This document shows, one piece after another, positions 21,281-63,757 of a stretch of DNA of 64,000 bases (its first letter is position 1; the number at the start of each line of letters is the position of its first letter). Source of the DNA: Aurantiacibacter xanthus (GTDB lineage: Bacteria > Pseudomonadota > Alphaproteobacteria > Sphingomonadales > Sphingomonadaceae); assembly GCF_003584015.1 (NCBI RefSeq), contig NZ_QXFM01000113.1, forward strand, positions 62,001 through 126,000. The letters run 5' to 3'. The position numbers and the translations under genes were made by a program. The notes beneath the pieces are model-generated. The model was not told where the DNA came from, ran no database searches, and saw only the letters and a program-made list of their open reading frames with translations.

Positions 21281-21374
21281 CCGCTCGTGCTGAGCTTGTC
21301 GAAGCACTGCTTTTCTTTGAGCGCAGCGCTGGAAGAACAAAGGCAATCCTTCGACAAGCTCAGGATGAGCGGGG
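21281..21374. repeat. REPIN-like element (CTGAGCTTGTCGAAGG family), copy A
   Basis: Two inverted arms, GCTCGTGCTGAGCTTGTCGA and its counterpart TCGACAAGCTCAGGATGAGC, separated by about 45 bases (TTTTCTTTGAGCGCAGCGCT...). It lies between gatC and gatA inside the operon and borders the gatA ribosome site. Confidence 0.9.
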
Positions 21375-29000: not shown

Positions 29001-29130
29001 ACACCCGCTCGCCCTGAGCTAATACCAACACCCGTTCGCCCTGAGCTTGTCGAAGGGCTGTTCTTCACTTTTGGCCTTGCGCGCCAAGATAAGGGCAATC
29101 CTTCGACAAGCTCAGGATGAGCGGTGTTTG
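29001..29130. repeat. REPIN-like element (CTGAGCTTGTCGAAGG family), copy B
   Basis: A broken half-copy (ACACCCGCTCGCCCTGAGCT, 29001-29020) followed by a full inverted pair: CGCCCTGAGCTTGTCGAAGG at about 29037 and CCTTCGACAAGCTCAGGATG at about 29100. It lies between the convergent ends of the ATP12 gene and the Mla lipoprotein gene. Confidence 0.9.
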
Positions 29131-32897: not shown

Positions 32898-35873
32898 ATG
32901 ACCCGCGAACTTGACAAGACTTTCGACCCCGCCGCCATCGAGACGAAATGGTATGCCCACTGGGAAGAAACCGGCGCCTTCCGGCCCGAGCGCCCGGATG
33001 CCGAGCCCTTCACCATCGTCAATCCTCCGCCCAACGTCACGGGCTCGCTGCATATCGGTCATGCGCTGGATAACACACTGCAGGACATTGTGATCCGGTA
33101 CGAGCGCATGAAAGGCAAGGATGCGCTGTGGGTGGTCGGCACCGACCACGCCGGGATCGCCACGCAGATGGTGGTCGAGCGGCAGATGGAAGCCGCTGGC
33201 GACAAGCGCAGCAACTATTCGCGCGAAGAGTTCATCGAGAAGGTGTGGGAGTGGAAGCACGAGAGCGGCGGCACGATCACCCGCCAGCTGCGCCGCCTCG
33301 GCTGCTCGATGGACTGGAGCCGCGAGCAGTTCACGATGGACCCGCACTTTACCCGCGCGGTGGTGAAGGTGTTTGTGGACCTCTACAACAAGGGCCTGAT
33401 CTACCGCGACAAGCGGCTGGTAAACTGGGACCCCAAGCTGAAGACCGCGATCTCCGACCTTGAGGTCGAGACGCAGAACCTCAACGGCGGGTTCTGGCAC
33501 TTCAAATACCCGCTGGCCGATGGCGTAACGCTCGACGATGGTCGCGACTATATCGAGGTCGCCACCACCCGGCCCGAGACGATGCTGGCCGATATGGCCG
33601 TGGCGGTGAACCCGGAGGACGCGCGCTACAAGTCGGTTGTGGGCAAGTTCGTGACGCTGCCGATCACCGGACGGCGCATCCCCATCGTCGCCGACGAACA
33701 TGCTGATCCCGAGCTGGGCAGCGGCGCGGTGAAGATCACGCCGGGGCACGATTTCAACGACTTCGAAGTGGGCAAGCGCGCGGGGATCAAGCCGGCCGAG
33801 ATGCTCAACATGCTCGATGCAGATGCCAACGTGTGTCAGACGGCGGACGGGCTGGTGCCCGAGGACTATATCGGCCTGCACCGCTTCAAACGCGATGGCG
33901 AGGACGGCGCGCGCGAAAAGGTCGTGGCGGCGCTGAAGGCCGAGGGCCTGCTGATCCCGCATGCGGCCAAGACCAAGAAGGGCGAAGAAGTCGAGCACGA
34001 CGCCGAGCCGCGCGTGATCGCGACGCCCTTTGGCGACCGTGGCGGCGTGGTGATCGAGCCATGGCTTACCGACCAGTGGTATGTCGATGCCGAGAAGCTG
34101 GCCGGTGCGCCGATTGAGGCGGTGAAGTCGGGCGAGATCGAGATCGTGCCCAAGACGTGGGAGAAGACCTTCTTCAACTGGATGGAGAATATCCAGCCTT
34201 GGTGTGTTTCGCGCCAGCTGTGGTGGGGGCACCGGATTCCGGCTTGGTACATTTTCAATCACATCACCCTTGAGACCGAAGTGTTCGTCACTGACAGCCG
34301 CGATGAGTTCGAGACGCTCGCGAAAGCGAAACACCCAGCCATCAAGGAGTTCGTCTATTTCGACAATCGCAACGATGCGCTCTCCTATGAGCCTGCGGAT
34401 GGCAATCCTGCCCACGTTGCACTCGCTTACCGCGACACTGACGTCCTCGACACATGGTTCTCCTCCGCGCTCTGGCCCTTCGCCACGCTCGGCTGGCCTG
34501 ACAACGACCCCACCTCCGCTCGCCCTGAGCCTGTCGAAGGGCTGCTTTCCAATTCGAACGCAACACAGGAAGAAAAGGACAGTGCTTCGACAAGCTCAGC
34601 ACGAGCGGACGTGGGGGTTGGTGGCTCAGCACGAGCGGATGTCGGTTCAGGCTCGCTTTACGAAAAGCACTATCCCAACAACCTGCTCGTTTCGGGCTTC
34701 GACATCCTGTTCTTCTGGGATGCGCGCATGATGATGATGGGGATGCACAACACCGGCCAGATCCCATGGCCGCGCCTCTATCTCCACGGGCTCGTGCGCG
34801 CGGCGGACGGCTCGAAGATGTCGAAATCGAAGGGCAACGTGGTCGATCCGCTGATCCTGATCGACAAATATGGCGCCGACGCGCTGCGCTTCTTCATGGC
34901 CGCGATGGAAAGCCAGGGCCGCGACATCAAGATGGATGAAAGCCGCGTCGAAGGCTATCGCAACTTCGCCACCAAGCTCTGGAACGCCACCCGCTTCTGC
35001 CAGTCGAACGGCATTGGCGCTTCGGCCAGCCTTGCCGCGCCGGAAGCGAAACTGGCGGCAAACCAGTGGATCATCGGCGAAGTCGCACAGACGGTCGAGG
35101 CGCTGGATAAAGCCATGGCCGAGCTGCGCTTCGATGCCGCGGCCAACACCATCTACCAGTTCGCGTGGAGCCGCTTCTGCGACTGGTATCTGGAGCTGAC
35201 CAAGCCCGTGTTCGCGGGCGATGAAAGCAGCCCTGCGGCGGTGGAAACCCGCGCGGTGGCCGGTTGGGCGCTCGACCAGATTCTGGTGATGCTGCACCCG
35301 TTCATGCCCTTCATCACCGAGGAACTGTGGCACGCGCAGGGGACACGCCCCTACGACCTGATCCTCGCCCAGTGGCCCGAACCGCAGGCCTCGGTCAGCA
35401 AGGACGCGACCGACGCCATCGATTGGGTGATCGCGCTCACCACCGCCACCCGCGCGGCGAAGAACGAGCTGGGCATTGCGCCGGGCGCAAAGCTCGCCGC
35501 CTTCTGCCCCGCCCCGAGCGACCTCGCCAAACGCGTGGTCGAGCGCAGCGCGGCGGCGATCGAGCGGCTGGCGCGCCTCACCCCGGTGGAGTTCGCCGAG
35601 GCTCCGGCGGGCGCGGCGATGCAGGTGACGGCGATGGACGACGTGTTCCTGATCCCGCTTGAGGGCGTGGTCGATCTCGATGCCGAGAAGGCGCGTCTGG
35701 AAAAGGCGCTGGCGGCCTCGCAGAAGGAGTTCAAGAGCCTCGACGGACGGCTGTCGAACCCGGCCTTTGCCGAGAAGGCCAAGCCCGAAGCGGTCGAGAA
35801 GGCCCGCGCCGATCATGCTCACCACGCGGGCGAGATCGAGCGGCTGACGGCGGCCTTGGCGCGGTTGGGGTAA
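32898..35873 (+). CDS. valS: Valyl-tRNA synthetase carrying a repeat-encoded insertion
   Basis: 991 residues. Class Ia synthetase with the HIGH motif in [14 protein letters not shown] (near 50), the editing CP1 domain, the KMSKS loop ([13 protein letters not shown], near 635), anticodon-binding domain and a C-terminal coiled coil ([19 protein letters not shown]). Start at the ATG 32898; the frame is open further upstream without homology. Residues about 538-586, between ATLGWPDND and [11 protein letters not shown], are an in-frame insertion translated from a palindromic repeat ([20 protein letters not shown]...). In relatives these blocks are joined by only a few residues. The reading frame stays intact, so the enzyme is presumably functional. 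Confidence 0.97.
34514..34641. repeat. REPIN-like element (CTGAGCCTGTCGAAGG family) inside valS, copy C
   Basis: Arms CCGCTCGCCCTGAGCCTGTC (34517) and TTCGACAAGCTCAGCACGAG (about 34586) with a 45-base centre, plus an extra half-motif GGCTCAGCACGAGCGGATG (34623-34641). The insertion keeps the valS frame and has no stop codon in that frame. Confidence 0.9.
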
Positions 35874-35881
35874 CGAACCTC

Positions 35882-36033
35882 CACCCGCTCGCCCTGAGCT
35901 TGTCGAAGGGCTGTCTTTCTTCTTCCGAGCACTACGCTCAAAGAAAAGGACAATCCTTCGACAAGCTCAGGATGAGCGGGGGTGGTGTTTGGCTCAGGAT
36001 GAGCGGGGTTGGTGTTTGGCTCAGGGCGAGCGG
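35882..36033. repeat. REPIN-like element with tandem tail units, copy D
   Basis: A full inverted pair (CGCCCTGAGCTTGTCGAAGG at about 35889; CCTTCGACAAGCTCAGGATG at about 35955), then the tail unit GGCTCAGGATGAGCGGGG with a GTTGGTGTTT linker repeated twice more, about 27-base spacing. It lies 8 bases after valS. The remaining intergenic bases up to 36166 show nothing recognisable. Confidence 0.9.
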
Positions 36034-36166
36034 ATGAGGTTCTTGATCCATGGCGGATTTCCTACAAGCCACACCCTGTGGCATGAACCAAACAATGACC
36101 CGCCCCAGCCCCCCTCGCACCAAGGCCCAACAGCGCCAAACGCCGCGCAAAAAGTTTCCGCTCAGG

Positions 36167-59362: not shown

Positions 59363-60361
59363 TCATCGATCAGAACCACCAAGTTCGTCGATGAGTTCCC
59401 GCATGTCAGCCGGCAATTCGGTCGCAAATTGTATCGTCTCGCCGGAAATGGGGTGGACGAAGCCGAGACTCGCGGCATGCAAGGCCTGGCGCGCAAAACC
59501 GAGGTTGCGGATCGTGCTGCGGAGGGCTGACGGATCGCGTCCATAGACAGGATCTCCCAATAGCGCATGGCCGATTGACGAAAGGTGAACCCGTACCTGG
59601 TGGGTCCGCCCTGTTTCGAGCCGACATTCGATGAGACTCGCATGATCGAGCCGTTCGATCAGCTTGTAATGGGTGATCGCATGCTTGCCACGCGAGGAAT
59701 TGTTGTCGAGCACCGCCATTTTCTTTCGATCACGGTCGGACCGGCCGAGGCGGGCGTTTATGGTGCCCTCGGCAGGGCTCGGACAGCCGCCGCAAACCGC
59801 GAGATAGCGCCGCTCGATCGAGTGGTCGGCGAATTGCTTGGCCAGCCCCTCATGCGCGACATCGCTTTTGGCGACCACGAGCAGGCCCGAGGTGTCCTTG
59901 TCGATGCGGTGGACGATACCGGGCCGCGCCACCCCGCCGATGCCGCTCAATTGGCCCGCGCAGTGGTGCAGCAGCGCGTTGACGAGCGTGCCATCGGGAT
60001 TGCCCGCCGCCGGGTGGACGACCATTCCGGCGGGCTTGTCGACCACGATCAGGTGCGCGTCCTCGAACACGACGGCGAGCGGGATAGCCTGTGGACGAGC
60101 CTGTGGATCGTCCGGGGGCGGAAGGTGGATAACAAAGCGCGCGCCCGCCTGAACCTTGGCCGAGGGGGAGCTGGCGGGCTTGCCCGATATTTCGACCTTT
60201 CCCTCGGAAATCAGTGATTTGATGCGTTCGCGCGACAGATCGCTCGCTTCGGCGAGGGCCTTGTCGAGGCGGCCATCGGCGGTGATGGTTCCAGAGACAA
60301 TTCCGGACTCCGCCAGTCCTGAGCTTGTCGAAGGACTGTTTTTCTCTTCTAATCGGGCCAT
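59363..60361 (-). CDS. rluD: 23S rRNA pseudouridine synthase RluD
   Basis: 332 residues. S4 domain (about 30-80: GRLDKALAEASDLSRERIK) and RluA catalytic domain with HRIDKDTSGLLVVAK (catalytic Asp) and GRTHQVRVHLSSIGHALLGD. The only in-frame ATG upstream of the S4 domain is at 60361. Residues about 8-16 (NSPSTSSGL) are encoded by a REP-like repeat, so the N-terminus has been rewritten by the repeat. Its ATG overlaps, on the opposite strand, the ATG of the GIY-YIG gene (palindromic CATG). Confidence 0.94.
   Translation of the reverse strand: MARLEEKNSPSTSSGLAESGIVSGTITADGRLDKALAEASDLSRERIKSLISEGKVEISGKPASSPSAKVQAGARFVIHLPPPDDPQARPQAIPLAVVFEDAHLIVVDKPAGMVVHPAAGNPDGTLVNALLHHCAGQLSGIGGVARPGIVHRIDKDTSGLLVVAKSDVAHEGLAKQFADHSIERRYLAVCGGCPSPAEGTINARLGRSDRDRKKMAVLDNNSSRGKHAITHYKLIERLDHASLIECRLETGRTHQVRVHLSSIGHALLGDPVYGRDPSALRSTIRNLGFARQALHAASLGFVHPISGETIQFATELPADMRELIDELGGSDR
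60311..60338. repeat. REP-like half-element (CTGAGCTTGTCGAAGG family), copy E
   Basis: CAGTCCTGAGCTTGTCGAAG plus GACTG. It lies inside the 5' end of rluD and 20 bases upstream of the GIY-YIG start. A near-identical copy with similar following bases recurs at 60648. Confidence 0.85.
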
Positions 60362-61181
60362 GCCGTTCTGGACCTACATGCTGCACTGTCGCGGGGGCAA
60401 GCTCTATACCGGCCACACCGACGATCTGGAGCGCCGCGTCGCGCAACACAAGACCGGGGCGATTGCGGGCTTCACGCGCGATCACCTGCCCGTGGAACTG
60501 GTGTGGTCGCAAGAGTTCGTGACGCGGGAAGAGGCCAAGGCGGCGGAACAGCAGATCAAGGGTTGGTCCAAGGCGAAGAAGCTGGCCCTGATCCGGGGGG
60601 ACTGGGGGAGAATTTCGCACCTCGCCCGCAACAGGCAAGACACCACCCCCGCCCGTCCTGAGCCTGTCGAAGGACTGCCTTCCACTTCTGAACTTGCGAT
60701 GCCTTACAATCCGGCGGACGGAGAAAAGAGGGAAAGCAGCCGTTGGGCCTGCGGCCCCTCTGCGAGTCCGACAGGCTCAGGGCAGTCGGATGTGGTGCTG
60801 GCGGATGCAGCCGCCGAGCAAATCCGCACCCACGCCCGTCTCACCGCCCCGCTCGAATGCTGCGGCCTCCTGCTCGGCGAGGGCGCCGCGATCACCGATG
60901 CGCGCCCGGCCCGCAACGTCCACCTCTCGCCGCAAACACATTTCGAGATCGACCCGCAGACGCTGATCGACGCCCACCGCGCCGCCCGCGCCGGCGGGCC
61001 GCAGGTGCTCGGCTATTACCACTCACACCCGCGCGGGCCCGCCCAGCCCTCCGCCACCGACCGCGCCATGGCCGCGCGCGACAGGGCGATCTGGGCCATC
61101 GTCGCGGGCGACCAGATAACCCTTTGGCGCGACGACGAAAGCTGTTTCACCCCGCTTTCCTACAGGCTCGCAACGGGGTAG
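60360..61181 (+). CDS. Fusion of a GIY-YIG nuclease and a JAMM/Mov34 (M67) metalloprotease through a repeat-encoded linker
   Basis: 273 residues in one frame. Residues 1-90 are a stand-alone-type GIY-YIG domain (YMLHC and LYTG elements, then DDLERRVAQHK). Residues about 97-142 are encoded by REP-like repeats and their centre ([18 protein letters not shown]...; SASPTGSGQS). Residues about 145-273 are a JAMM metalloprotease with E166 in LECCGLLLG and zinc motif YYHSHPRGPAQPSATD (H221, H223, D234). Relatives of these domains are normally separate proteins; translation of the second could also start at ATG 60699 or GTG 60792. Whether one fused protein or two are made is open. Ends 133 bases before chpT. 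Confidence 0.8.
   Translation: MPFWTYMLHCRGGKLYTGHTDDLERRVAQHKTGAIAGFTRDHLPVELVWSQEFVTREEAKAAEQQIKGWSKAKKLALIRGDWGRISHLARNRQDTTPARPEPVEGLPSTSELAMPYNPADGEKRESSRWACGPSASPTGSGQSDVVLADAAAEQIRTHARLTAPLECCGLLLGEGAAITDARPARNVHLSPQTHFEIDPQTLIDAHRAARAGGPQVLGYYHSHPRGPAQPSATDRAMAARDRAIWAIVAGDQITLWRDDESCFTPLSYRLATG
60648..60679. repeat. REP-like half-element, copy F, in the GIY-YIG/JAMM linker
   Basis: CGTCCTGAGCCTGTCGAAGG followed by ACTGCC; direct repeat of copy E, including a similar downstream CTTCT...ATGCC. Confidence 0.85.
60764..60789. repeat. REP-like half-element, copy G (inverted relative to F)
   Basis: GAGTCCGACAGGCTCAGGGC then AGTCGG; inverted against copy F with an 84-base centre, together resembling a REPIN. 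Confidence 0.75.
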
Positions 61182-63326: not shown

Positions 63327-63757
63327 GTGCCGGGGAGCCGGGCAGCCGCGTGCTTCGACAGGCTCAGCATGAGCGGGTCGATGGTGCGAGGAAAGTCCGG
63401 GCTCCACGAAACGAGGGTGGCGGGTAACGCCCGCCGTGGGCAACCACAGGGAAAGTGCCACAGAGAGTATACCGCCGATGGCCTCCAAAGGGCACAGGCA
63501 AGGGTGAAAGGGTGCGGCAAGAGCGCACCGGGGCGCTGGCAACAGGGCCCGCATGGCAAACCCCACCCGGAGCAAGACCGCATAGGGGTCGCGGGCCTCG
63601 CAAGAGGCAGGGGTGTTTCGCCCCGAGCGACCCGGGTTGGTCGCCAGAGCGCGCCGGGCAACCGGCCGCCCAGACGAATGGCTGCCGCCGCCGATACCTT
63701 CCTGCATGCAGGATAAGGTCGGCGGACACAGAACCCGGCTTACAGGCTCCCCGGCAC
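63327..63757 (+). ncRNA. rnpB: RNase P RNA, type A, with a repeat in the P3 region
   Basis: 431 bases between perfect P1 strands GTGCCGGGGAGCC and GGCTCCCCGGCAC. Universally conserved blocks: GAGGAAAGTCCGGGCTCCAC (after P3), CACAGAGAGTATACCGCC, AAGGGTGAAAGGGTGCGG, and the 3' end ACAGAACCCGGCTTACAG. The RNA is the catalytic subunit that matures tRNA 5' ends. Bases 63350-63378, in the P3 arm, consist of a REP-like sequence (TGCTTCGACAGGCTCAGCAT...). Confidence 0.96.
63350..63378. repeat. REP-like half-element inside rnpB, copy H
   Basis: GTGCTTCGACAGGCTCAGCA followed by TGAGCGGGT; the same sequence occurs at the tail of copies A, C and D. It falls in the variable P3 arm of RNase P RNA. Confidence 0.85.

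Follow-up and report, generated by a model that had tools for sequence, protein, structure and literature searches.

Palindromic repeats residing in protein genes of Rickettsia are reportedly the subject of papers by Ogata et al. These Rickettsia palindromic elements (RPEs), repeats of ~150 bp, lie in frame in unrelated genes, and the available parts of a 2024 review (PMC10969869) give their products as thought to be compatible with function. REPs of the GTAG and CGTC families occur within open reading frames too, mostly as head-to-head dimers (Di Nocera et al. 2013, PMC3733652, in its available sections). The same sections describe the CGTC families of alphaproteobacteria as having no dedicated transposase and report that the REPs of two recB genes of Xanthomonas occupy roughly one common position. 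For E. litoralis (written 'lithoralis') and S. alaskensis they list TruB and tRNA synthetase genes, without saying which synthetase, and they argue that loops and linkers may tolerate REPs. Palindromes that code for protein are a known kind, represented by RPEs and by REPs in genes, and ever since the Rickettsia elements it has been unsettled whether such in-frame palindromes arise by accident or offer a way to new protein sequence. Here we report a palindromic repeat in the valine--tRNA ligase gene (valS) of Aurantiacibacter xanthus, located in a 64,000-nucleotide stretch of DNA that we refer to as the window, and the recurrence of repeats at the same loop of the enzyme (ValRS) in relatives.

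A dispersed palindromic repeat inside valS

The valS gene occupies positions 32898-35873 of the forward strand and encodes 991 amino acids, insert included, without an interrupting stop; its start codon is predicted and was chosen by alignment with relatives. The product scores 1158 bits against the NCBIfam valine--tRNA ligase profile (cut-off 704) and has the Pfam class I synthetase, anticodon-binding and C-terminal arm domains. Between the WFSS...GWP and KHYPN...SGFDI blocks of the catalytic domain, the variable loop that follows GWP (34500-34655) is 52 residues long where the nearest relatives have 4, in agreement with the loop site originally proposed. Aligned to Thermus ValRS (1gax), the match is interrupted between residues 472 and 479 of the Thermus enzyme. 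The in-frame insertion of a dispersed palindromic element in valS that had been proposed there is borne out by a frame that is open throughout and by 48 extra codons, that is, 48 residues in excess of the nearest relatives. The closest ValRS that we fetched, from A. suaedae (G037), is 94% identical and lacks the insert residues, although its genome contains 36 copies of the 15-base motif of the repeat; this is the reverse of relatives that share the residues but not the repeat. The genome of the window (99.86% complete) holds a single full-length valS, not the second intact copy that would have made this one suspect. Its other matches to ValRS are either partial and 27-36% identical, which by inference would be other synthetases, or are two insert-like places (62-63%). 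Conservation of the gene together with its copy number suggests that ValRS tolerates the insert. Upstream in the same gene, the stretch from RIPAWY to DTDVLD (34233-34433) has 67 residues compared with about 32 in the two nearest relatives; its length among relatives runs from about 32 to 99 residues, and by eye it is not repeat-derived.

Folded as DNA, positions 34508-34616 form one long hairpin of 109 nt with a variable central spacer, at -34.9 kcal/mol compared with -16.8 for shuffles (z -7.2). The element itself is as originally predicted at 34514-34641, except that the hairpin starts slightly further left. Its left REP-like unit (34522-34542, forward strand) has a 5-bp stem (GCCCT/AGGGC) and an 11-nt loop, and its right unit (34582-34602, reverse strand) is inverted, as recognized by sequence and by stem covariation over the arms in the genome. 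The inverted arms that had been noticed are confirmed: CTGAGCCTGTCGAAGG stands at 34525, and its inverted counterpart occupies 34584-34599. Likewise, what had been called a third half-motif (34624-34645, forward strand) proves to repeat the right outer arm (34594-34615) in tandem at a spacing of 30, the two being 91% alike. Read from the sequence, the valS insert consists of a 109-nt hairpin whose right arm is followed by a 30-nt tandem copy of itself. An Rfam search returned three matches below gathering scores (mir-4436 once, AaHKsRNA41 twice), which we take as chance and reject as an identity for the element, and megablast of the insert against plasmid records gave no match.

The insert belongs, as had been claimed, to a dispersed family. 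The CTGAGCCTGTCGAAGG motif has 14 matches in the window at up to 3 mismatches, where 1.01 are expected, and the 16-mer CTGAGCYTGTCGAAGS has 71+75 = 146 exact matches in the 4.38-Mb draft genome (reversed control 0+0). In a genome sample of 61 distinct copies, 42 are inverted pairs, and the commonest distance between their motifs is 74-75 nt. Conservation of the arms begins sharply at CCGCTCG, in the arm start sequence CCGCTCG(T/C)C, and weakens inward to a variable spacer. Three stem positions are Watson-Crick paired in 104, 99 and 91 of 104 arms from the genome, compared with shuffled means of 73, 44 and 55, and they covary (C-G/G-C; T-A/C-G/G-C; G-C/A-T). With both halves forming hairpins whose stem pairs covary, REP-like dimer is a fair label. 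The original description of the element as REPIN-like therefore holds for its anatomy, inverted pairs of hairpin units with covarying stems, but not for a RAYT in this genome, in which a search for a Y1/RAYT transposase gave no matches to PF01797 (the same search found matches in 5 of 14 control genomes). We also considered whether the element has a built-in coding potential. This was not borne out, as 42 copies show no excess of open frames (2.48 of 6 per element compared with 2.84 in shuffles) and a pair spacing spread across all residues mod 3.

Other copies lie nearby. A sister element is found just 3' of valS at 35884-36045, with inverted arms at 35884-35918 and 35946-35980, followed at 35965-36045 by outer-arm copies at a spacing of 27 nt (30 in valS); such extra arm copies are seen at 5 of the 61 sampled elements. 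Paired copies are also located, motif to motif, at 29041-29115 and 21290-21363, and unpaired half-elements at 60319-60333, 60658-60672 and 63353-63367. Elsewhere, an open reading frame with a SnoaL-like domain and a putative start (L009:728-2125, reverse strand) contains an element near its N terminus, in a region that resembles a signal peptide.

Repeats at the same loop in other genomes

We sampled 149 genomes of the window's family, which we take to be Sphingomonadaceae in the wide GTDB sense, with an 89-residue insert-free query that found matches in 145. A loop insert was scored where the match was split or longer by 18 nt or more; differences of 3 residues or fewer were disregarded. On this basis, 39 of the 145 genomes, the window's own included, have a split or longer match at the loop and 106 have neither, and we fetched sequences for the other 38 of the 39. 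Palindromic repeats are present in the loop in 36 of the 145 genomes: GC-rich palindromes in 23, of the related kinds CCTCCC n6 GGGAGGGG, CTCTCCC n5 GGGAGAGG and CCTCCCC n5 GGGGAGG, the TCGAGCGAAGTCGAG family in 7, the window's repeat family in 5 and the GTCATTCCGAACTTG family (GTCATTCCGAACTTGTTTCGGAAT element) in one. The remaining three are two longer loops that are not palindromic and one split match cut by a contig end (G180), which was left out of the count. Some loops hold single half-elements (L191, L195 and L214, and L112 and L138 among named relatives). Insert positions lie within about four codons of each other. On the matches in this sample, the ValRS loop is a recurrent landing site for palindromic families unrelated in sequence, and its apparent entry by several of them goes beyond what the original prediction saw.

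A class-wide search of 142 genomes matched 130, 128 of them outside the family, and most of these 128 matches equal the query in length, with 7 that are 12-21 nt longer, two that are split (G268, G215) and one that begins late (G203). The loop insert of G268 (L262), the sole case read outside the family, is long, low-complexity and rich in threonine and alanine, and is not palindromic.

Genomes that carry a repeat family in the loop tend to have more of it genome-wide, as judged by pattern counts in 42 genomes that were picked mostly as carriers (controls 0 or 1 per strand). One-sided rank tests, uncorrected, gave p = 0.011, 0.022, 0.037, 0.003 and <0.001, with carriers divided among the three GC-rich kinds by eye; strict copies number only 0 to 5 in some carriers.

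We placed the inserts on a ValRS tree of 158 rows, obtained from 174 proteins after 3 incomplete sequences and 20 duplicates were dropped; 7 rows had been added by hand, two of them among the 3 incomplete. Before counting, L183, L184 and L214 were relabelled by hand as class P, which lumps the three GC-rich kinds, L111 as A, and L212 and L215 as none. The loop site shows 44 changes among five states, or 37 as presence and absence, and the inserts form 49 maximal pure clades. Parsimony gives 45 gains at equal cost of gain and loss, and 14 gains with 64 losses when one gain costs five losses, counts tied to a quickly built tree that was rooted at its midpoint, with P as the root state. Because carriers are over-represented among the tree rows, any rate of insertion is drawn from the 145-genome sample only. 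The window's insert is probably shared with G022, judging from the same DPTSA flank and tandem half-motifs. Since the closer G037 is insert-free, as is G014, and the more distant G022 has the insert, losses, gene conversion or repeated gains are called for; sliding identity does not decide whether recombination swapped the loop among close relatives.

The loop is not the only one entered. A motif scan of the 158 ValRS genes, leaving out three strays (L211, plus L178 and L183, which are partial rows), found matches at three loops, located at residues of about 470-479, 500-509 and 690-709 in the numbering of the A. suaedae enzyme, where 500-509 is the loop with the window's insert. The first has a CGTC-type repeat in 4 rows; in L070, L111 and L113 it lies between RIPAWY and DVLDTWF, and reads SRAGGNP ... 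RLRGDD in L070. The third has GC-rich palindromes and the window's family, with carriers L042, L050, L054, L081, L111, L193, L202, L206 and L209; at this site 92 of the 158 rows could be labelled, and 15 of these have an insert; on the other 66 the pattern failed. Some valS genes, such as L111, have inserts in two or three loops. In the window's own genome (G000), the same repeat family is also in frame in DnaE (L247:2501-2576), TrmD (L235:1505-1579) and TruB (L021:1502-1516, with a degenerate right arm). Among TruB loci in relatives, 15 of 30 were readable by pattern and 5 match a repeat: L264, the window's own, and L291 of the same family, L266 of CGTC type, and the GC-rich L292 and L293.

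We located these sites on the model of an insert-free relative (mean pLDDT 87, best PDB match the Thermus ValRS 1gax), the model with the insert being poor, and all three fall at coil segments. The second lies between helices 495-498 and 507-512 and the third between helices 666-694 and 700-720. In the model of the window's own ValRS (mean pLDDT 67) the insert is below 50, which is weak evidence of disorder because the catalytic core is partly poor too.

Reading frame and composition of the inserts

The left arm of the window's family is read as the EPVEG or ELVEG type in all 12 ValRS cases, at two sites, and the EPVEG-type reading is also that of TrmD, DnaE and TruB in the window's genome. 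When the other paired copies in the genome are read, 51 of 78 readings leave the EPVEG frame open and 44 the LSLSK frame. At a single site, a constant phase could result from a fixed target nucleotide; here, two ValRS sites, TrmD, DnaE and TruB share the phase.

For the inserts as a whole, 48 of 52 were long enough for frame tests and 45 of these had another open frame on either strand. Compared with the mean of the other open frames on both strands, the used frame is both more acidic and poorer in order-promoting residues in every one of the 45, and it is less basic in 43. In 56 overlapping stretches of ordinary valS sequence, the used frame is also more acidic in 44, so that part of the acid bias of the inserts is a general coding effect. 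However, in 44 of the same 56 stretches the used frame is higher in order-promoting residues, opposite to the inserts. Hydrophilicity was considered as the selected property and rejected, as the used frame is the most hydrophilic open forward frame in only 16 of 36 cases.

The cleanest comparison is offered by the variable spacer, read in one fixed frame in gene-borne and in other copies of the element. In 13 gene-borne copies, acidic residues make up 19.6% of the spacer, basic ones 7.2% and order-promoting ones 10.2%. The corresponding shares are 5.2%, 17.8% and 27.6% in 39 other paired copies in the window's genome (p = 7e-7, 6e-6 and 1e-7, respectively) and 4.7%, 19.9% and 23.3% in 20 copies from G007, G166 and G125 (p = 1e-5, 6e-5 and 7e-5). 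Four known genic copies were left out, and the copies used for comparison were assumed, with no recourse to annotation, to lie outside genes; the p-values are optimistic because genomes and elements are related. Such a spacer composition is what translation followed by selection on the peptide would predict.

Origin of the hot spot and comparison with known systems

We consider it very probable that a selfish-looking dispersed element is translated as a tolerated loop in ValRS, and that a filter acting on the peptide accounts for its recurrence there. According to this explanation, a non-autonomous palindromic element, a REP-like hairpin pair of about 90-110 bp, would have inserted into valS and would be translated as a disordered, acidic loop of ~48 residues in the catalytic domain, with an effect that we infer to be near neutral. 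Elements may land widely, but survival in an essential gene would need one of few permissive loops, a stop-free frame and an acidic, order-poor peptide. The spacer would afterwards be kept, or shifted further toward an acidic, order-poor composition. Such a filter could have let several unrelated families into the same ValRS loop many times within one bacterial family, and protein-level selection, rather than target preference, would then make the hot spot.

Were the DNA of the loop instead a preferred target of several palindromic elements, the recurrence would reflect mutation. Insert positions within four codons or so, and the constant reading phase of the window's family at the loop, are what such a preference would give. 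Nevertheless, the families using the loop are unrelated in sequence, other loops are entered as well (the first and third ValRS sites, DnaE, TruB and TrmD), and the matching genomes outside the family mostly keep the query length, and we regard this explanation as unlikely. Quite unlikely, in our estimate, is a beneficial insert, in which ValRS or its mRNA draws a function from the acidic disordered loop (solubility, reduced unspecific binding of RNA, or mRNA stability via the hairpin) and the recurrence is adaptive. The convergent acidic, order-poor composition and the strong hairpin, folded as DNA, would fit, but a merely tolerated loop would show a similar composition, the nearest relatives are insert-free, and neither a split nor a clearly longer match is seen in the 106 sampled genomes mentioned above. 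A pseudogene, assembly artefact or misread frame is scarcely credible, as no point in its support was found, the whole gene is open and has no second full-length copy in a nearly complete genome, and the same arrangement is present in 35 other sampled genomes.

A more far-reaching possibility, which we offer tentatively, is that a few loops in core proteins of translation and replication (three in ValRS and one each in TruB, TrmD and DnaE) serve as standing entry ports through which unrelated palindromic repeat families come to be translated. Once inside, the repeats would be moulded by protein-level selection into acidic disordered loops, and free-living bacteria would gain raw material for new segments of protein from them at a measurable rate. 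The family-wide pattern is more interesting than the single valS case, and the two together show how repeats can turn into protein pieces. Many unrelated entries, along with close relatives whose insert-free sites serve as natural controls, allow direct tests of tolerance, of the choice of frame and of selection acting on the peptide. For annotators, PEPVEG- or STSSAR-like stretches in such proteins are repeat-derived.

In the literature within reach, most subscription papers lying beyond it, we found no account of inserts in ValRS, of repeats converging on a single loop or of the peptide signature, and no occurrence of two 14-base forms of the motif; PMC12306157 counts repeats in an Erythrobacter and has, in its available sections, nothing on inserts. 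Entry of one loop by many repeat families, with a signature in frame and composition, is new here as far as we could find. The analogy with RPEs drawn in the original prediction is apt, in that a palindromic repeat sits in frame in a conserved protein gene. The likeness is one of description, and the hosts here are GC-rich relatives of Erythrobacter. Unlike RPEs, several families here converge on one loop of one enzyme, and the window's family has neither an excess of open frames nor a mod-3 spacing of its own. The REPs of Di Nocera et al. share the location within genes. However, the window's family lacks the GTAG tag, its units have a 5-bp stem and an 11-nt loop as opposed to the 8-9 bp and 4-5 nt given for CGTC units, and the ValRS hot spot and the tests of frame and composition reported here have no counterpart in the available sections of PMC3733652. 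Two inverted REP-like hairpins, a short spacer and many dispersed copies are shared with REPINs, although no Y1_Tnp gene was found in the window's genome. Finally, the elements resemble MITEs in being short and having terminal inverted repeats, and differ from them in that neither a parent transposon nor a target duplication was identified, in a search that covered PF01797.
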